Origin: Halopiger xanaduensis SH-6
Lineage (GTDB): Archaea; Halobacteriota; Halobacteria; Halobacteriales; Natrialbaceae
Assembly (NCBI RefSeq): GCF_000217715.1
Contig: NC_015666.1
Coordinates: 2,616,270 to 2,680,269, forward strand
Direction: 5' to 3'
Length of the DNA: 64,000 nt
A program made the translations under genes and the position numbers. The notes below the pieces were generated by a model. It had not been told where the DNA came from. It searched no databases and saw only the letters and a program-made list of their open reading frames with translations. This document shows, piece after piece, positions 37,913 through 47,368 of the stretch (position 1 is the first letter of the stretch; every line of letters begins with the position of its first letter).

Positions 37913-39898
37913 ATGAGTAGCACCGCCGATACGGACGAGGTTATCGAGGTCAGCGCTGACGGACTATCAGTCCGGAAGACGTTTACGGCGGACGAGTTTC
38001 CGGTCCCCGCGATCCGGTTCGAAATCGACTCCGAACGCGAGAGTCAGGTCGATTTTCGACTGTCCGAGGACATCCCCGACTCGTTCCCGATGGACAAGGT
38101 CGGCTTCCACCCCGACTATCACAGCGACGACTGGACGGCGTTTCAGGACAACCACGTCGAGTTTACCGGCACGCTCGAGCCCGGCGAAACGCTCGTCACG
38201 GTCTACGGGATTCGGATCGACGACGAGAGCACGGCCGAGGAGTTCCTCACCGAGCCGACGGTCGTCGAGGTAAGCGCCGAGGAACAGCGGACCACCGACG
38301 GCGACGAGATCGACGACGGCGTCATCGGCAGCATCGTCTCGGAGGACCGCAACCAAGCCGTCAGAGATATGCTCTCCGGCGACTCGGCCTCCGTTCCCGG
38401 CCTCGACGCCGCCGAGGGGGCCGACGACGACTCGAGTGCAGACGAGTCCGCGGCGGATGCGTCCGCGACCGCCGACACGGAAGACGCCGCCGAAGACGAC
38501 GAAACCGAGAGCGCTGTTCCCGAGGCCGACGACGACTCCGACGAGAACGGGCTCGATCTCGACCTCAGCGGCGTCGAAACCGATCCGGCAGAAGGTGCCG
38601 ACGAAGATGGCGAGGACGAGGAAGGAGACGCACCCGACATCGACCTCGGCTTCGAAGAGGAGGAGATCCCCGAACCGGCCGACTCGGACGAGACCGCCGA
38701 TCCGCTCGCGGAACCGGACGACGGTGAAGACCTCGATCTGGATCTGGACCTCGACGCCGATTCCGACGTGGACGGCGAGGACGAAGCCGAAAGCGAGGCC
38801 GAGCCGGACGCCGATATCGACCTCGGACTCGAGGACGAGACCGAAGCGGCGGATGCCGATCTCGAGGACGAAGCGGCGGACGTCGACGAGGAGGAGGCCG
38901 CAGCAACCGATCCGGACGAGGAACCCGAATCCGTGGTCGAGCCGGCATCCGAATCCGCATCCGAGGACGGCAAGGACCTCGAGGACAGCGGTACTGATGA
39001 CACCGAGGACGGCGACGTCGACGCGGACGACGTGACGGACACGGACGACGAAGAAGTCACACCGGACGAAACCACGACGGAGACGACCGAACCGGCCGCT
39101 GCGACGGCCACGACGGACGAATCGGGACCGGAAGCTGAATCGGCCGCCGAATCCAGTTCCGAATCCGAGCCCGAGACTGTAGCCGAACCCGAACCCGGCT
39201 CCGAACCGGTACTCGAGGGAACCCTCGCCGAACGACTCGCGAGCGAGATCCGCAACGGCGAGGTCGACGAGGACGAACTCGAGGTGCTCCGCGCCGAACT
39301 CGCCACCGAACCGGAACTGAGCGCCCCCGAACTGGCGAAGCTCGACCACCTCCAGTCTCGCGTCGAGGAGGTCGCCGCCTACACCGAGGCTCTCGAGACG
39401 TTCCTCGGCGAGAACGGTACCGGCGAGCAACTCATCGAGGACTTCCGGTCGGAGGTGGCGGACGTACAGGACGAACTCGCGTCGATGGACGACCGCCTCG
39501 CGGACACCGAATCGCAGGTCGACGACGTCGAAACCGAAATCGACACGCTCACCGAGTGGACGACCGACCTCGAGGACGAACTCTCCGATCTCGACCACCT
39601 TCCGGAAACGGTCGACTCGCTGACTGACCGGACCGACGACGTCGAAGACGAGATCGAAACGGTGGCCGACGACGTCAGCGCGCTCGAAACCGGCCTCGAG
39701 ACCGTCGAATCGGACGTCGAAACGGTCGCGGACGACGTCGATGCGGTCGAAACTGATGTCGACGACCTCTCCGAGGACCTCAGCGCCGTCGAAGACGACG
39801 TCGAGAGCGTCGAATCCGACCTCGAGGACGTCCGCGAGGAGATCACGGACATTCAGGAGTGGCGCAACCAGCTCGGCTCGATGTTCGCGGACAACTGA
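37913..39898 (+). CDS. long acidic protein with disordered centre and coiled-coil tail
   Basis: Residues 1-125 of this 661-aa protein form a folded-looking beta-rich domain (VIEVSADGLSVRKTFTADEF; LEPGETLVTVYGIRI). Residues about 130-430 are extremely Asp/Glu/Ser-rich with short repeats such as DLDLDLDAD and DIDLG, and are probably disordered. From 440 on there is a helical region followed by a heptad-type coiled coil with repeating DDVETEIDTL, DDVEDEIETV, SDVETVADDV units (about 500-655). No signal or membrane segment is seen. It could be a scaffold or chromosome/cytoskeleton-associated protein. I do not know a function. Confidence 0.83.
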   Translation: MSSTADTDEVIEVSADGLSVRKTFTADEFPVPAIRFEIDSERESQVDFRLSEDIPDSFPMDKVGFHPDYHSDDWTAFQDNHVEFTGTLEPGETLVTVYGIRIDDESTAEEFLTEPTVVEVSAEEQRTTDGDEIDDGVIGSIVSEDRNQAVRDMLSGDSASVPGLDAAEGADDDSSADESAADASATADTEDAAEDDETESAVPEADDDSDENGLDLDLSGVETDPAEGADEDGEDEEGDAPDIDLGFEEEEIPEPADSDETADPLAEPDDGEDLDLDLDLDADSDVDGEDEAESEAEPDADIDLGLEDETEAADADLEDEAADVDEEEAAATDPDEEPESVVEPASESASEDGKDLEDSGTDDTEDGDVDADDVTDTDDEEVTPDETTTETTEPAAATATTDESGPEAESAAESSSESEPETVAEPEPGSEPVLEGTLAERLASEIRNGEVDEDELEVLRAELATEPELSAPELAKLDHLQSRVEEVAAYTEALETFLGENGTGEQLIEDFRSEVADVQDELASMDDRLADTESQVDDVETEIDTLTEWTTDLEDELSDLDHLPETVDSLTDRTDDVEDEIETVADDVSALETGLETVESDVETVADDVDAVETDVDDLSEDLSAVEDDVESVESDLEDVREEITDIQEWRNQLGSMFADN

Positions 39899-40955: not shown

Positions 40956-41654
40956 TTAAGGCTGACTCGCCAGCGGCACGACGTAGGACTCGACGAAGTC
41001 GATCAGCCGCTCGACCAACTCCGCTCGATCGACGAAGTAGCGGAATCGGAGATCGTACGCGTCGTCCATCTCGTCGATCGACGCGCTGCTGAACCGCGGT
41101 TCGTAGACGGTTCCGGACTCGCCGCTCGCTTTCTCGGCTTCCGCGAAGATACAGAACGTCCGCGGATCGCGCAGTCGCAGGTCCGCATCGCGGAGCCGGA
41201 AGTGCTCGGGGATCGCGCCGGCTTCGGCCCCGGCGCCCGTCGTGAGTCCGGCCTTCGTGAAGACGAACGCGTTCCCGGCGCTCGCCTTCGCGAACGCCAC
41301 CGACTGATCGATGACCGGCATCCCCGGCTCCTCGAGGGCCTGCCGTTCCGCCTCGCGTCTGGTCGGGATCTCGATGTCGCTCGCGATGAACGCCGTCGTC
41401 CCGGTTTCGGCCGACACGCGGTCGCAGATCGTCCGCAGCGTCGCTTCGATCGCGTCGGGCGCGGCACCGTTCCTCCGCGGGGCGAGCGGATCGGGCGGCA
41501 ACGGGTAATCGTCGTCCGGATACAGATAGGCGGGATCGAGCAGGCGGTACGGCCCCATGAGGAAGACGAAGACGTCGTCCCGATCAGCGTCGGGAAGCGA
41601 CCGAGTGATCCACTCCTCGATCGGCCGCCCCTCGTACTCCGTGAGCGCGGTCAT
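40956..41654 (-). CDS. DUF7509-like protein, possibly NDT/TIR-like
   Basis: This 232-aa soluble protein starts a Rossmann-like unit with VFVFLMGPYRLLD (residues 28-40), like the first strand and loop of nucleoside deoxyribosyltransferases. TTAFIASDIEIPTRREAERQAL (86-107) and NAFVFTKAGLTTGAGAEAGAI (128-148) follow. The GAGAEAG site aligns with the catalytic Glu loop of that fold. A C-terminal helix with FRYFVDRAELVERLIDFVESYV ends it. The family label is recalled, not checked. It is divergent from a winged-helix regulator gene; a defence or nucleotide-metabolic role is possible. Confidence 0.65.
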   Translation of the reverse strand: MTALTEYEGRPIEEWITRSLPDADRDDVFVFLMGPYRLLDPAYLYPDDDYPLPPDPLAPRRNGAAPDAIEATLRTICDRVSAETGTTAFIASDIEIPTRREAERQALEEPGMPVIDQSVAFAKASAGNAFVFTKAGLTTGAGAEAGAIPEHFRLRDADLRLRDPRTFCIFAEAEKASGESGTVYEPRFSSASIDEMDDAYDLRFRYFVDRAELVERLIDFVESYVVPLASQP

Positions 41655-41750
41655 CCCTCGTCAGTCCAAACGGACGACAGTTAAAGTTCGTTTCAGAAGT
41701 TCGTCTTAACGTCGATTAAGTCTAAGTAGGTCGAGTCCGTATCCTCGCCT
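41655..41750. promoter_or_regulatory. shared divergent promoter region
   Basis: The minus strand carries CTTTAA (41686-41681) about 29 nt before ATG 41654. The plus strand carries GATTAAGTCTAAGTAGG (41712-41728) before ATG 41751. The two genes thus start back to back within 96 nt, and a regulator bound here could control both. Confidence 0.5.
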
Positions 41751-42116
41751 ATGAGCGAACGAGAGACGCCACGAAACGAACGCTCCGCCGCGCGAGAACG
41801 CGTCGAATCGGATCTCCTCGCCGGCACCCTCGACCTCGAGCGAGAGGCGAACCGGCTGCAGGTGATGGGCGAACCCACGCGGTTTACCATCCTCTACCTG
41901 CTCGCCGAGGAGGGGCGGCTTCGAAGCGGTGAACTCGCGGACCTGCTCGACCGACGGCAAAACGATCTGTACCACCACCTCAACACGCTCGAGGATGCGG
42001 GACTCGTCGGGAAATTCCGCGACGGCAGCAGTCGGGTGTACGAACTGTCGCCGCTGGCCGAAGGATTCGTTCCGCAGATATTCGATGCAGTCGGGGCGCG
42101 CGCCGAGGCGGTGTAG
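41751..42116 (+). CDS. ArsR-type winged-helix regulator
   Basis: This 121-aa single-domain winged helix has EANRLQVMGEPTRFTILYLLAEEGRL, the recognition helix ELADLLDRRQNDLYHHLNTLEDAGLV and the wing KFRDGSSRVYELSPLAEGF. The first 35 residues are charged and acidic. ArsR-like proteins usually repress and release on metal or stress signals; no metal-binding Cys pair is visible, so the signal is likely different. It faces the DUF7509-like gene across a 96-nt promoter region. Confidence 0.85.
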   Translation: MSERETPRNERSAARERVESDLLAGTLDLEREANRLQVMGEPTRFTILYLLAEEGRLRSGELADLLDRRQNDLYHHLNTLEDAGLVGKFRDGSSRVYELSPLAEGFVPQIFDAVGARAEAV

Positions 42117-42435
42117 CGACACAGCGCGCGAGCCGACGCAACCGCAGCGCACGTTTTCTCCCCAAATCCGCCGGCCGATTCGGTCAGTTGACGGCAGCGG
42201 CCGTCTTCGTTCTTGAGGACCCCTCACACGGCCGAATAGTGATCAGAATGCGTTGGCTCGGGAACCCCGATTTCGATATAGCGGTATGAAGTTTATGAGT
42301 CCGATATAGGACAGTCGGCACCATAGATTACAGTTAGTATTCCAACACGATATAGACCAGCAACTGCTGAATGCGGAAAATTCGATTCGATATCTCGAGC
42401 AAGACGTCATCGACGCGCAGTCGCTGCAGCGGCGA
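42117..42435. other. 319-nt convergent spacer with a dispersed repeat and no gene
   Basis: Between the end of the winged-helix gene and the end of the integrase gene there is no convincing reading frame. It is more AT-rich than its surroundings and contains the dispersed repeat copy B. Confidence 0.6.
42272..42368. repeat. dispersed intergenic repeat, copy B
   Basis: TTCGATATAGCGGTATGAAG opens and AGCAACTGCT closes the element, mirroring 15244-15339 with almost identical spacing (85 nt versus 84). It lies directly 3' of a tyrosine recombinase gene, so it may be linked to mobility. Confidence 0.6.
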
Positions 42436-43488
42436 CTACGGCGCCACCGAGTAGATGTGCTCGAGGTACGTCTCGCGGACGCGATCGCCCCAGTTGTGGG
42501 TGTAGGTGTCGATCACGTCGCTGGCGACGTCGCCCCGCAGATACTGGACGATACCGCGATCGCCGGTTCGATCCCGGAGGTGCGTGGTGAAGAAGTGCCG
42601 GAAGTAGTGGGGCGTGACGTTCTCGGAAGCCCCGCCGCCGGTCCGGTACCAGCCTCGCTCTCTGGCGTACTGTTCGACGACGTGGTGAACGACGTTCGGC
42701 GTCAGCCGCTGGCCCCAGCTGTCAGCGGTCCCGACGAACAGCGGCTCAGTCGCCGCGGCAGACGGCGTTCTCGAGTCCCCGGCTACGTCCGGTCGGACGG
42801 CGAGCCATCGGACTAATACCTCTTTCAGCTCGTCGTCGATCGGAATGACGGTCTCGCGCTTTCGCTTGTTCGACGCCGTGCGCCGTTCGCCGCCGGATTC
42901 CTCGCCGTAGGTGTGCTCCGTCGAGACGAACAGCGAGTCCGGACGCCCGGCGATGTGGGCGCGGGGCTGCCACGTCTGGGCCTCGTGCTCGAGGTGGCAG
43001 TCGATGAGGTCCAGATTGCACAGTTCCCCTGCCCTGATACCGGTTTTCAGCAGTGTAACGACAATTGCACGGTGCAGGGGATGGCGGACGTCCGCAACGA
43101 ACGATCGCATCTCCGGCAGCGTGATATCCCGGCGGGTCGGGTTCGACTCGATCGACTCGCTCATCTCCTCCAAGACGACCGTCATCGGATTCTCGTCGGT
43201 GTGGCCGACCCGCTCGAGGTAGCTGTAGAAGCGGTTGAGATAGGAGGCGTAGGTGGCGACGGTGCTCTCGGAGTGCGTGGACCGCAGTTCGTGGATCCAG
43301 GCCATGCAATCGCGGTAGCTCGCCTCCGGCGGCGCCTTCTCGAACCGCTCCGCGAGGAAGGACTCGTAGTCCGTCAGAACGCGCTGATAGGCCGCTGCAG
43401 TCCGTTCGTTGCGGCCGTGATGCTCGATGTCCTGCAGGAAGTATTCGACCGTATTCGCCTGCTGTTGCGGCGTTTGTCCCTCACTCAT
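42436..43488 (-). CDS. tyrosine recombinase (phage-type integrase family)
   Basis: The N-terminal SAM-like core-binding domain (about 10-110) and the catalytic domain are present in this 350-aa protein. Arg152 lies in TGIRAGELCNLD, a Lys lies in the SNKRKRETVIPI beta-hairpin, HYFRHFF gives His294 and Arg297, and Tyr329 in IDTYTH is the nucleophile. The usual LGH second His is an Asp (RGD, 318-320). The start ATG 43488 overlaps the DUF5805 gene by 8 nt. It could be a chromosomal Xer-like recombinase or an element integrase. The neighbouring gene-free AT-rich region supports the latter; the lack of other element genes argues against an intact provirus. Confidence 0.88.
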   Translation of the reverse strand: MSEGQTPQQQANTVEYFLQDIEHHGRNERTAAAYQRVLTDYESFLAERFEKAPPEASYRDCMAWIHELRSTHSESTVATYASYLNRFYSYLERVGHTDENPMTVVLEEMSESIESNPTRRDITLPEMRSFVADVRHPLHRAIVVTLLKTGIRAGELCNLDLIDCHLEHEAQTWQPRAHIAGRPDSLFVSTEHTYGEESGGERRTASNKRKRETVIPIDDELKEVLVRWLAVRPDVAGDSRTPSAAATEPLFVGTADSWGQRLTPNVVHHVVEQYARERGWYRTGGGASENVTPHYFRHFFTTHLRDRTGDRGIVQYLRGDVASDVIDTYTHNWGDRVRETYLEHIYSVAP

Positions 43489-43891
43489 CGCCGACCACCA
43501 CGTAGCCGCCCTCGCGGCCGCTGTACCGGACCTTATTCTCGTCCTGCAGTTGCTGGAGCGCCGCGTCAAGGTCGTCCTCGACATCGTCGATCAGCGCGTC
43601 GACGAGTTCGTCCCAGTCGTGGACGCCCTCGCGCTGGAGCACCTCGAGGATGCGGTCGGCGAAGTCGTCGCCTGCTGAGTCAGCTGTCTCGGCATCGGCG
43701 TCCATCTCGCTCTGCTTTTCGTCGGCGGCGCCTCCGCTCGAGGGGACCTCAAAATCGCTCCGTCCGGCTTGGACCATCGTCCGGACGAACTCGCTTTGAC
43801 TCATCTCGAGATTGTCAGCATGATCTTCCCAGGCCCCCTTCTGGTATCGGGGAACGTATGTTTTCACGGCGACTCGCTCGTCGTCTGTCAT
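43481..43891 (-). CDS. DUF5805 protein, RHH-like partner of the recombinase
   Basis: The N-terminus of this 136-aa protein (ERVAVKTYVPRYQKGAWEDHADNLEMSQSEFVRTMVQAG) has the pattern of a ribbon-helix-helix DNA-binding unit. A Ser/Ala-rich acidic linker leads to a winged-helix-like C-terminal half (DRILEVLQREGVHDWDELVDALIDD through KVRYSGREGGYVVV). The stop overlaps the recombinase start by 8 nt, so the two are co-expressed. It may regulate the operon or direct recombination. ATG 43891 is preferred to GTG 43903. Confidence 0.82.
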   Translation of the reverse strand: MTDDERVAVKTYVPRYQKGAWEDHADNLEMSQSEFVRTMVQAGRSDFEVPSSGGAADEKQSEMDADAETADSAGDDFADRILEVLQREGVHDWDELVDALIDDVEDDLDAALQQLQDENKVRYSGREGGYVVVGDE

Positions 43892-43925
43892 CGACGGCAC
43901 CAACTCACGCTGCTCACTTCAATCT

Positions 43926-43961
43926 AACCCACATTCACAAATAAATATCCTTATTTGGGTT
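43926..43961. promoter_or_regulatory. interrupted palindrome in the DUF5805/recombinase promoter
   Basis: AACCCA (43926-43931) and CAAATAA (43938-43944) on the left are repeated in inverse as TTATTTG and TGGGTT on the right (43951-43961). The TATA-like minus-strand ATATTTATTTG lies inside it. An RHH-type protein such as the first gene product could bind here. Confidence 0.45.
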
Positions 43962-45468
43962 GACAGCACCCTATATCCACCCGACTAGAGAGATTATTTG
44001 TGTATATGACTCCATAATTGCCGGAATTCTGGTCCTAGATTAGAAGATAAACTGTCTAGTGTAGATGAATGTTATCACTAGCCATGACAGAGGATCAAGG
44101 CTCGGTTTGACTGATCGATCGAGAGGGGGAGAACATAATCTCAGAATTTAGTACATTCCTGGAGCAGGAGCTAGCGAAAGATGTTGTTTCGTTTTCATAT
44201 ATACAACCCCATTCTAGGAGGTTAGACCCTAGGGGTTGCGGTCGAGAAACACCGTTCTAGAGAACATATTTTCTCCCACTGCGACTTTAATTCCATTATA
44301 TCTTACCTATATAATACTTCAGGGAACCCACTTCTAATCTGTATGTTTGATAGCAATGCACACAGTGATTTCAATTGGGCAATACTGTCATCACCATCAT
44401 AATTATTGTTCGACGTCAACTTCAGTGCGAATGAAGAGCGACCCCAAATGACACCGGTAGCGAATGAGACGATAGACGGCGGCGAACGAGTCCCCGATCT
44501 CGAGGCGAGGGACAGTACTCGTTTCGCGTCGTCGTGCTTCGACCGACGACACGGTCGAGCGCCGGTCGATGACTCGAGCGCGCTCGAGTCGGTCGGGATC
44601 AGTGCCACCGGCGTATCCACCGGGAGAGCGTGCGAGCATCGATCTCCGATCGGTTGATATTGACCCGACTGTCGGCTGGGCTCACCTGGGTCCCCTCCGG
44701 GCAACGTTGATCTGTCACCCCGGTTGATCGGCCTGGAACCACAGGAGCGCCGTTCTACATCCGCGGATTGGATGCGATTCGTACGGGAGAGATCAGGGGT
44801 CAGCAGTAGGCACGACGAGCCACGCCGTCGCTATCGTGTATGACGATTCAGTAAAGCGCAGAAACGTAGATCGGCAGGTCTACTCGAGTCGGCCCCACCT
44901 GAATCTTGGACCCGTCTGCAGCTAAACCCGAGCCGATCACGGCACTGCTGCGGGAGAATGCTGCATGCGAATCGACAACGTCGAATGCGGATCACCTAGC
45001 AAAATCACCCGAACGAGATGGTTACTGCCGAAGACGCTCGCGGATGACCGAAGACGAGCACGGCGCTGCGCGACCCAAACCGGTCGGCGCCGCTGACCTA
45101 GGAGCTCGAGGACGCGAGTCGTTGCGGATACCGGAAGAAACGGATCGCTCGAGGCGACTGTCGCGGGTTCGGCCGGGACTCGAGTCCGCTGATTGTACCA
45201 CTCATTTCTATTAATCCACATCATCAATTCAATAATACCTGTCCACAGCCATGTTCCACCTCGACCAAATAAATTCTATTCCGCTATATCGAATATTGGG
45301 CTCGAACCACGGTCGAACGGGTTCAGTTCGGAACACGATGAAGATCGAAATTGGTCGCAGCGAGAACAATCGTCAAACCACCTGTCGAGGGTTACCCCCT
45401 CACACGGGCGAGGGGGTACACACCGCGTCGAGACCAGATATCTGCCGGAGAGACAGTTCGTGGCGCGG
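43962..45468. other. 1.5-kb AT-rich stretch with no convincing gene
   Basis: The left 450 nt are markedly AT-rich (runs such as TTTCGTTTTCATATATACAA near 44188-44207) and the remainder is of mixed composition. Open frames of 80-130 codons on both strands at 44.3-45.2 kb lack halophile-like acidic composition and family motifs, so I do not call them. It may be a decayed integrated element linked to the recombinase, or a large non-coding region. Confidence 0.6.
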
Positions 45469-45702
45469 TCAGTTCGTCGGTACGCCGACGTCGTCGACGT
45501 GATAGAGATCGTCTTTGAGTCCCTCGCCGTCACAGTCCTCGTTCGGGCACTCGTAGTGCCAGCCGTCCTGGGTCGCGTCGCCCTCTCGGAATCGCTCGCC
45601 GCAGACCTGGCAGAACAGCTGTCCCTTCTGACAGGTGTCGAGGTGGAGCTCGAGCGCGAGTTCGGTCTGGAACGACTGGTTGCAGTTGCGACAGGTGTGC
45701 AT
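45469..45702 (-). CDS. HVO_2901-type zinc finger protein
   Basis: MHTCRNCNQSFQTELALELH contains a C2H2-like finger (Cys-x2-Cys ... His, completed by HLDTC). It is followed by a second Cys-rich unit, LFCQVCGERFREGDATQDGWHYECPNEDC, in a protein of 77 aa. This matches the haloarchaeal HVO_2901-type zinc-finger family, as remembered. Small zinc-finger proteins in haloarchaea are often regulators. ATG 45702 is chosen; a longer frame adds a non-conserved stretch. A promoter-like AATAAAAAATCC lies 36-48 nt upstream on the minus strand. Confidence 0.82.
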   Translation of the reverse strand: MHTCRNCNQSFQTELALELHLDTCQKGQLFCQVCGERFREGDATQDGWHYECPNEDCDGEGLKDDLYHVDDVGVPTN

Positions 45703-45737
45703 AATTCGTCTGACGCTGGCGTCCGACAAAACTGCTT

Positions 45738-45751
45738 GGATTTTTTATTCC
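45738..45751 (-). promoter_or_regulatory. TATA-like A/T run for the zinc-finger gene
   Basis: GGAATAAAAAATCC reads on the minus strand about 36-50 nt before ATG 45702, giving a predicted leader of about 15-20 nt. Confidence 0.4.
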
Positions 45752-45896
45752 GTCCGGGTCGCCCGTGATTCGGGCCCACTGCGTCGATTTAGTCGATACC
45801 GGTCGAGAAGAAAGAGCGTTCGGCAAACCAGTGTATTCGACTTCGAGTGGTCGGTAGTTCGGTAGTTTAGGCGTGTCTATGGTCACCAATCGACGG

Positions 45897-45909
45897 CCGA
45901 AAAATACTG
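45897..45909 (-). terminator. T-run after fumC
   Basis: CAGTATTTTTCGG reads on the minus strand about 50-60 nt beyond the fumC stop, the expected signal for factor-independent archaeal termination. Confidence 0.4.
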
Positions 45910-45958
45910 TCGAGAACTGGAGGGGTTAGGTGTACTGACTCGAGATCGAGACAGCCGC

Positions 45959-47368
45959 TTAGTCCTGCCCGAGGATCCCGCGTTCGGTCATCTTCGCGGG
46001 GTCGAGCACCTCGTCGGCTTCCTCCTCGTCGAGGTAGCCCTTCTCGAGGACGACCTCGCGGACGGTCTTGTCCTCCTTGAGCGCCGTCTTGGCGACCTCG
46101 CTGGCCTTGTCGTAGCCGATGTGGACGTTCAGCGAGGTGGCCATCGCCATCGACTGCTCGACGCGGTCGCGGCAGTACTCCTCGTTGGCCTCGAGTTTCG
46201 CGACGAAGCGCTCGGCGAAGACCTGGCTGGCGTTGGAGATGAGTTCGGCCGACTCGAGGAAGTTGTGCGCCAGGACGGGCTTGTAGAGGTTGAGGTCGAT
46301 CTGGCCCTCGGCGGCGCCGGCCGATACTGCGGCGTCGTTACCGACGACCTGCTTGTGGACCTGGTTGACGGCCTCGGCGACGACGGGGTTGATCTTCCCG
46401 GGCATGATCGAGGAGCCGGGCTGGTTCTCGGGTTGTTCAATCTCGCCCAGGCCGTTGCGCGGGCCCGAGGCGAGCAGTCGAAGATCGTTGGCGATCTTGT
46501 TCAGCGAGCCGGCGACGGTTCGCAGGGCGCCGTGGGCCTCGCTCATCGCGTCGTGGGCGGCCTGGGCCTCGAAGTGGTTGTCGGCCTCGCGGAACTGGAC
46601 GCCGGTCTCCTTCGTAATATATTCTGCCGCGCGCGAGGGGAACTCGGGGTGGGTGTTCAGCCCGGTGCCGGTCGCGGTGCCGCCCAGCGCGAGTTCTGCG
46701 AGGTGTTCGCGGACCTTGTCGACGCGTGCGAGGCCCTTCTCGACCTGCGTGCGGTAGCCGGAGAACTCCTGTCCCAGGGTTACGGGCGTCGCATCCTGCA
46801 GGTGGGTGCGACCGGTCTTGACGACGTCGTCGAACTCCTCCTCTTTCTCCTCGAGCGCCTCGCGGAGGGTATCCAGCGCGGGGATGACGTCCTTCTCGAC
46901 GGCCTCGAGGGAGGCGACGTGCATCGCGGTCGGGATGACGTCGTTGCTCGACTGGCCGTAGTTGACGTGGTCGTTGGGGTGGACGACGCGGTCGCCGATC
47001 TCCGACCCCATGAGCTCGGCGGCGCGGTTGGCGATGACCTCGTTGGCGTTCATGTTCGACGAGGTGCCGGAGCCGGTCTGGAAGACGTCGACCGGGAACT
47101 GGTCGTCGTGTTGCCCTTCGATAACCTCGTCGGCGGCCTCGATGATCGCCTCGGCGACGTCCTCCTCGATCAGATCAAGGTCGCGGTTGGCCTGTGCGGC
47201 GGCCTTCTTGACGACGCCGAGCGCGCGGACGAACCGGCGGCTGAACGTGATCCCCGAGATGGGGAAGTTCTGGATCGCGCGCTGGGTCTGGGCCCCCCAG
47301 TAGGCGTCCGCGGGCACCTGCATCTCGCCGAGGCTGTCCTCCTCGATTCGGTAGTCGTCGTCTCCCAT
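45959..47368 (-). CDS. fumC: fumarate hydratase class II
   Basis: This citric-acid-cycle enzyme (469 aa) hydrates fumarate to malate without an iron-sulfur cluster. The signature GSSIMPGKINPV and the active-site regions QTGSGTSSNMNANEVIAN, HPNDHVNYGQSSND and GRTHLQDATPVTLGQEF are intact, with AYWGAQTQRAIQNFPISG near the N-terminus. The length matches the family. The ATG at 47368 is preferred; the frame continues upstream without conserved sequence. It diverges from the sugar ABC operon across a 235-nt spacer with repeats. Confidence 0.96.
   Translation of the reverse strand: MGDDDYRIEEDSLGEMQVPADAYWGAQTQRAIQNFPISGITFSRRFVRALGVVKKAAAQANRDLDLIEEDVAEAIIEAADEVIEGQHDDQFPVDVFQTGSGTSSNMNANEVIANRAAELMGSEIGDRVVHPNDHVNYGQSSNDVIPTAMHVASLEAVEKDVIPALDTLREALEEKEEEFDDVVKTGRTHLQDATPVTLGQEFSGYRTQVEKGLARVDKVREHLAELALGGTATGTGLNTHPEFPSRAAEYITKETGVQFREADNHFEAQAAHDAMSEAHGALRTVAGSLNKIANDLRLLASGPRNGLGEIEQPENQPGSSIMPGKINPVVAEAVNQVHKQVVGNDAAVSAGAAEGQIDLNLYKPVLAHNFLESAELISNASQVFAERFVAKLEANEEYCRDRVEQSMAMATSLNVHIGYDKASEVAKTALKEDKTVREVVLEKGYLDEEEADEVLDPAKMTERGILGQD

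Follow-up and report, generated by a model that had tools for sequence, protein, structure and literature searches.

The operon of a tyrosine recombinase and the 28-bp palindromic core in front of it very probably form the chromosomal Xer/dif module of the haloarchaea, with a predicted ribbon-helix-helix (RHH) partner protein and two extra half-sites. This reading is drawn from sequence comparisons, namely the operon with its core, their conservation, the single copy in the window clade, the place opposite oriC1, the inversion of the spacer and the insertions that break the spacer. Binding, cleavage, recombination, the resolution of dimers and what DUF5805 does are what we infer. A module that works like Xer/dif is the best explanation of the locus; formal XerA membership is not claimed because the recombinase scores below the curated value and departs from the motif at one catalytic position. 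The window referred to throughout is the whole stretch of DNA that was analysed, 64,000 nucleotides from Halopiger xanaduensis SH-6.

A Xer-like recombinase gene overlaps a DUF5805 gene

The sequence-only reading of the window had placed a DUF5805 gene in overlap with a tyrosine recombinase gene, and this is borne out: both genes lie on the minus strand, overlap by 8 bp and have Pfam matches.

42436-43488, minus strand: Xer-like tyrosine recombinase, 350 amino acids, SAM-like N-domain and Phage_integrase domain (Pfam)
43481-43888, minus strand: DUF5805 protein, 135 amino acids, predicted N-terminal RHH and C-terminal winged-helix-like DUF5805 domain (Pfam PF19121, AlphaFold2)

For the recombinase, Pfam gave 54.8 bits for Phage_integrase and 32.1 bits for the SAM-like N-domain, and the catalytic R-K-H-R-Y set was found alongside that domain. 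Residues R152, K208, H294, R297, D320 and Y329 were invariant in 31/31 aligned relatives; K208 we take, by its motif, to be the catalytic lysine. The His or Trp expected before the catalytic tyrosine (R-K-H-R-[H/W]-Y) was absent in all 31 aligned relatives, which have Asp320 at the position where the Xer motif, as given in the accessible text of PMC5357621, has H or W. The NCBIfam model XerA_Arch (NF040815) scored 110.2 bits, under its curated cut-off of 220, and the protein is therefore named Xer-like and not filed as XerA. The structure model of the recombinase was poor at the C terminus (mean pLDDT 65.1, with residues 289-350 below 50) and was left out of the conclusions.

The DUF5805 gene matched its Pfam family at 97.9 bits. 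From the monomer AlphaFold2 model (mean pLDDT 79.0) and weak Pfam matches (NikA-like in 30/45, RHH_1 in 12/45), the N-terminal strand-helix-helix is modelled as an RHH DNA-binding fold, followed by a winged-helix-like domain. The top rows listed by VIA-align for this model were RHH proteins, at a middling best Z of 6.1 (the RHH of PutA); Foldseek alone gave no match under E 0.001 (best E 0.062). The predicted N terminus would be alike in fold to PutA, CopG, Arc, NikR and also MatP, whereas the C-terminal winged-helix-like domain is extra in DUF5805, and a common fold proves no function.

The palindrome upstream of the operon is a conserved dif-like core

What had been called a palindromic promoter is a genuine palindrome, which we now read as a dif-like core with an 11-6-11 layout, TTCACAAATAA-ATATCC-TTATTTGGGTT.

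43934-43961, no strand assigned: dif-like core, 28 bp (arm 43934-43944; spacer 43945-43950, ATATCC on the plus strand; arm 43951-43961), single perfect copy in the genome and in the window, kept upstream of DUF5805 across the class

Allowing up to three mismatches, CAAATAA-N6-TTATTTG (43938-43957) had no other match in the window (a mean of 0.02 was expected), and the inner 20 bases occurred perfectly once in the 4.36-Mb genome, with one other place at two mismatches. The layout of 28 bp with 11-bp inverted arms and a 6-bp spacer is conserved upstream of DUF5805 across the class. The 140 loci gave 124 distinct sites, and 120 of these read ATAA-N6-TTA (94 ATAA-N6-TTAT and 26 ATAA-N6-TTAG), in a search that favours finding that core since sites were scored for ATAA/TTAT itself. 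Two observations speak against a search artefact: the distance from the core to the DUF5805 start codon is nearly constant (mostly 39-52 nt), and two distant paralogs have lower best scores for it (L149, 7/8; L150, 5/8). Dropped before the 124-site count were the plasmid copies L111 and L112, the degenerate site of L145, the two paralogs, the loci with the full site away from the operon (L121, L124 and L135) and the duplicates L140 and L141; the interrupted locus L047 was retained. Although the letters of the arms vary by clade, their complementarity is kept: it reached 0.639 of cells, versus 0.22-0.33 when the arms were slid and at most 0.587 in 500 shuffles. The core and operon being conserved across the class, chance is excluded.

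An exact AAATAA-N6-TTATTTGTGA site was present in 25/125 family genomes, at one place each and beside the recombinase; this one-site-per-chromosome count covers the window's own genome and 25 window-clade genomes. One-mismatch window-type sites occurred elsewhere at three places, one each in genomes G077, G091 and G101.

Each arm extends outward, and two further half-sites lie upstream

Alignment anchored on the core revealed that each arm reaches about 22 bases and ends in a TGTGGNNCTA-like sequence, and that upstream there are two further copies of the half-site: an inverted one at -54 and a direct one at -88/-89. For the anchored conservation profile, the sites of L044 and L047 were set by hand.

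43912-43931, minus strand: conserved sequence block (GGGNTAGATTGAAGTG) lying between the core and the start codon, a possible promoter (conservation profile)
43923-43944, minus strand: extended half-site E4, the operon-side arm with outer TGTGGG...TAGA (anchored conservation profile, half-site PWM)
43951-43972, plus strand: extended half-site E3, the far arm (left arm -0.1 under the right-arm PWM versus -29.8 shuffled, window clade)
43994-44015, plus strand: accessory half-site E2, TTATTTGTGTATATGACTCCAT (PWM peak at offset -54 in 15/30 window-clade and 8/21 Halorubrum loci)
44029-44050, minus strand: accessory half-site E1, TTATCTTCTAATCTAGGACCAG (PWM peak at offset -88/-89 in 14/30 window-clade and 7/21 Halorubrum loci; conservation profile)

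The scan covered the window clade and Halorubrum, with shuffles that preserve base composition only. Above threshold we counted 33 PWM matches in the 30 window-clade loci versus 7.9 expected, with 3 in the control region, and 24 in the 21 Halorubrum loci versus 5.5 expected, with 2 in the control region. The block at 43912-43931 may have a promoter role.

The spacer is found inverted and is broken by insertions

Relatives of the window carry both ATATCC and GGATAT, or near variants, between unchanged flanks. The 40 distinct spacers included 5 reverse-complement pairs, with no reverse-only and no complement-only pair; column shuffles gave a mean of 0.74 reverse-complement pairs and never 5 in 2,000. 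With orientation labels that we defined ourselves, the recombinase tree needs at least 7 orientation changes for the Halorubrum group (27 rows) and at least 2 for the window clade (27 rows).

Natural insertions meet the same six bases. Compared with its sister G326, genome G177 has a 2.04-kb insert (L152:2041-4080; C1:1402041-1404080). In G326, where the site is empty, the edge of the insert maps to position 1236902, within the spacer. Three products are encoded by the insert, namely a VapB-like antitoxin, a PIN-domain toxin and a compact tyrosine integrase. The insert seems to be a very small toxin-antitoxin-bearing element with the core as its target site, and its own integrase, not the window-type recombinase, may have inserted it. 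Natrinema pallidum (L047) has about 1.6 kb more than N. gari (L041), between two copies of the spacer ACTCAC: the far end reads GAGATAA-ACTCAC and the operon end ACTCAC-TTAGCTCG, with the same six bases at both. G328 and G246 have a full core 1.5-2.3 kb from the operon and a partial site at the operon, with no empty relative for comparison. Judged from sequence, the insertion cases would put the crossover of site-specific recombination within the spacer, with the window-type recombinase as a candidate enzyme.

Nearly every genome of the class has the operon, mostly as a single copy

DUF5805 was found in 290 of the 292 genomes drawn from the class and, among 14 control genomes, had a match only in Haloferax volcanii. 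The recombinase was present in 123/125 family genomes, including every one of the 111 with completeness of 90% or more and contamination of 5% or less, and DUF5805 directly preceded it in the 110 loci first collected. Only 2 of 72,556 plasmid records held a relative at E<=1e-40. One narrow exact pattern matched no viral contig, a result of little weight since that pattern would also miss the site of the window itself. The combination of a patchy distribution with an empty site in relatives, as expected of an integrated element, was not found in the family and class genomes.

Most multi-replicon genomes had one recombinase match, and therefore their other replicons seem to lack the module; certain large replicons may have their own. 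In loci L024, L026-L029 and L038 the window-type operon has a back-to-back neighbour, a second operon of roughly the 60-66% type, whose DUF5805 match starts only at residue 68-92, the N terminus being missing. In G033 and G093 a stop codon interrupts the neighbour recombinase of the back-to-back pair, and each of the nine loci scanned had only one core within 430 nt upstream. A newcomer module seems to bring gene and site together, with loss of the resident site and replacement at the same place. As a separate observation, Halomarina has, in addition to its chromosomal operon (L084), a second operon copy on a 1.16-Mb replicon (L111), where the copy comes with a core of its own, GGATTA-GGGCAC-TTATC, that is slightly degenerate.

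The locus lies opposite oriC1

oriC1 is conserved in all haloarchaea, according to the accessible part of PMC3528665, and the PolD small-subunit gene adjoins it, as stated in that of PMC7776575. In 36 single-contig genomes (23 genera, 7 families; genome sizes rounded to 0.1 Mb), the distance from the locus to the oriC1-type orc gene had a median of 0.448 of the genome and a range of 0.303-0.497. It exceeded 0.40 in 32/36 genomes, the other four lying at 0.30-0.36; a KS test on position, uncorrected for kinship, gave about 1e-18. The PolD gene was at most 20 kb from that orc in 34/36 genomes; in G117, which has the lowest distance (0.303), it is 194 kb from the orc used, and G328 had no PolD match. 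On the window's own chromosome (3,668,009 bp) the orc lies at 731474 and the site at 2660207, 47.4% apart.

As position controls, radA (median 0.044) and ahcY (0.061) are origin-near and hence not neutral. The window neighbour fumC was at most 14 kb from the locus in 9/36 genomes; in the 19 genomes where it was more than 200 kb away, 4 exceeded 0.40 for fumC and 16 for the recombinase. The distance to a second universal orc gene was less regular (>0.40 in 21/36). Over 200 kb either side of the site there was no gene-strand switch (plus-strand fraction 0.469 versus 0.478).

The place opposite oriC1 in the 36 genomes points to a predicted terminus region. Since the locus keeps this place although further origins exist, oriC1 would seem to define a terminus even so. 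We also observed that AT skew per 50 kb across G000 C3:2460000-2859999 changes sign near the site, from mostly positive values on the near side to negative ones beyond, a weak signal that was left out of the conclusions.

A proposed mechanism

The recombinase would bind the 28-bp core at both of its inverted arms. Once the two copies of the core on a chromosome dimer had paired, strand cuts at either edge of the 6-bp spacer, followed by strand exchange, would turn the dimer into two monomers. The first product of the operon, DUF5805, probably binds the half-sites in their outer, TAGNNCTA-like parts, and also both upstream accessory half-sites. Once bound, it would aid synapse assembly or set the outcome, and would regulate the operon, filling the place of FtsK in bacteria or of ArgR/PepA at cer plasmids. 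A further-reaching version, which we offer tentatively and consider doubtful, has DUF5805 take the part of FtsK at the dif sites of archaea: bound to the TAGNNCTA boxes of four extended half-sites, this RHH/winged-helix protein would build a topologically selective terminus synapse and drive resolution among some 20 chromosome copies, and rare antiparallel synapses would leave flipped spacers as a fossil record of Xer activity.

Alternative explanations

Several results count against the Xer/dif reading: the XerA_Arch score, the Asp in place of His/Trp, the lack of a gene-strand switch, the four genomes at 0.30-0.36, the G177 insert's own integrase, the one recombinase match in most multi-replicon genomes and, for H. 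volcanii, the broad termination zones and the viable deletions described below. The palindrome might instead be an operator only, with DUF5805, as an RHH protein, repressing its own operon and the recombinase acting elsewhere. RHH proteins do bind palindromes, the core sits a short way before the DUF5805 start beside the promoter-like block, and the extra half-sites share that regulatory region; yet an operator leaves unexplained the spacer flips, the spacer-broken insertions with their 6-bp repeat and the place opposite oriC1, and the full core of G328 and G246 lies far from the operon. We regard this as improbable. More improbable still is that the core is a true recombination site with another purpose than dimer resolution, such as a DNA switch or the att site of a mobile element. 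Elements do insert at the core, and the spacer flips are recombination-like events beyond dimer resolution, but near-universal presence, single copy and a terminus-like position are predictions for dif, and att sites of mobile elements are not expected to stay opposite an origin. The sequence-only reading had proposed a decayed integrated element, in favour of which are a tyrosine recombinase, AT-rich gene-free DNA and a 16-nt flanking repeat. For the operon this is refuted by distribution, the operon being intact, chromosomal, near-universal and hardly ever on plasmids rather than dispersed, and we give the proposal almost no credence; it could hold for 44274-45232 alone.

The spacer flips could also come from replication template switching in the hairpin instead of from the recombinase. 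In its favour, other genomes are known to contain small inversions flanked by short inverted repeats. In the same 24 Halorubrum loci, however, exact loop flips numbered 35 in 145 pair comparisons at the core against 5 in 3,325 at other inverted repeats (528 sequences), all five at one place; these counts are of locus pairs with shared history. Template switching is unlikely on this contrast.

Comparison with known systems

One of the closest known systems is XerA/dif of Thermococcales (Pyrococcus abyssi), which also has a single tyrosine recombinase, a 28-bp 11-6-11 site, one site per chromosome and a terminus-region location, and whose dif core, ATAA-N6-TTAT, recurs at the haloarchaeal site (PMC2958812, accessible part). 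There, dif lies away from xerA and that part of the paper describes no partner gene; the haloarchaeal module differs in having the site before a DUF5805-recombinase operon, Asp for His/Trp and two accessory half-sites. Sulfolobales have a predicted dif close to xerA, as here, with sequence conserved on one side (PMC2958812), but their dif is far from termination zones (excerpt of PMC7776575) and they are without DUF5805. Among bacteria, XerS/difSL and XerH/difH likewise use one recombinase, and the XerS gene is immediately adjacent to its own site; difSL, in contrast, measures 31 bp and has a central region of 11 bp (PMC5357621, in the portion available), versus 28 bp with 6 bp here. XerCD at cer with ArgR and PepA combines a core with accessory DNA bound by a transcription-factor-like protein (same portion of PMC5357621), a layout similar to ours, although cer is a plasmid site whose accessory proteins are unrelated to DUF5805, and DUF5805 binding here is putative.

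For H. volcanii, a 2020 review (PMC7776575, accessible part) counts 12 xerC/d-like genes, treats dif sites only as a possibility with a termination role to be determined, and describes termination in broad zones; four XerC/D-like genes were deleted with the cells still viable, and these may include the window-type counterpart. The open-access literature searched named no haloarchaeal dif site and had no mention of "DUF5805", and the word "halo" does not occur in the accessible part of PMC2958812. The present analysis names one recombinase near-universal in its class, its partner and an exact 28 bp for testing, in organisms that keep many copies of their chromosome and have more than one origin on it. 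An open question on archaeal chromosomes, how joined chromosomes are separated after replication, is thereby made directly testable, and DUF5805 becomes a candidate for control of dif recombination in archaea without FtsK.

Gene-free DNA and repeats beside the site

The 1.5 kb without a gene that had been pointed out beside the operon stands as described. Within 43889-45468 (1,580 bp) none of five ORFs, the fifth extending past 45468, had a Pfam match at E<=0.01, and no Rfam family reached its cut-off over 41600-46000. The DNA is AT-rich, with 52% GC in 44001-45000 versus 57-73% in the other 63 one-kb windows.

44274-45232, no strand assigned: gene-free variable stretch outside the site (no match in same-genus G009, where both flanks are 88-89% identical)

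The suggestion that the stretch is a recombination site used by the recombinase fits the 28-bp palindrome and fails for the gene-free DNA, which lacks similarity in G009. We read 44274-45232 as fast-changing filler beside the site, and it could hold the remains of an insertion.

The sequence-only reading had proposed a look for direct repeats around 42.2 and 45.3 kb. A 16-nt pair (42220-42235 and 45396-45411; 15/16 identical, 94%) does flank the region, as one pair among 21 direct-repeat families. As att repeats of a decayed element it was rejected, since nearly all relatives keep the operon and offer no empty site; a tRNA att target was likewise rejected, with no tRNA gene in the window. The supposed dispersed repeat at 42240-42330 had no second match anywhere in the genome at E<=0.01, and has a 71% inverted echo at 45252-45293. 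Of the two 16-nt copies, the second is part of a GC-rich hairpin and could serve as a terminator.

A few kb from the site, 37913-39898 encodes an acidic 661-amino-acid protein whose C-terminal coiled coil weakly resembles an archaea-specific SMC-related protein (48.8 bits, cut-off 300). It aligned beside the site in several relatives.
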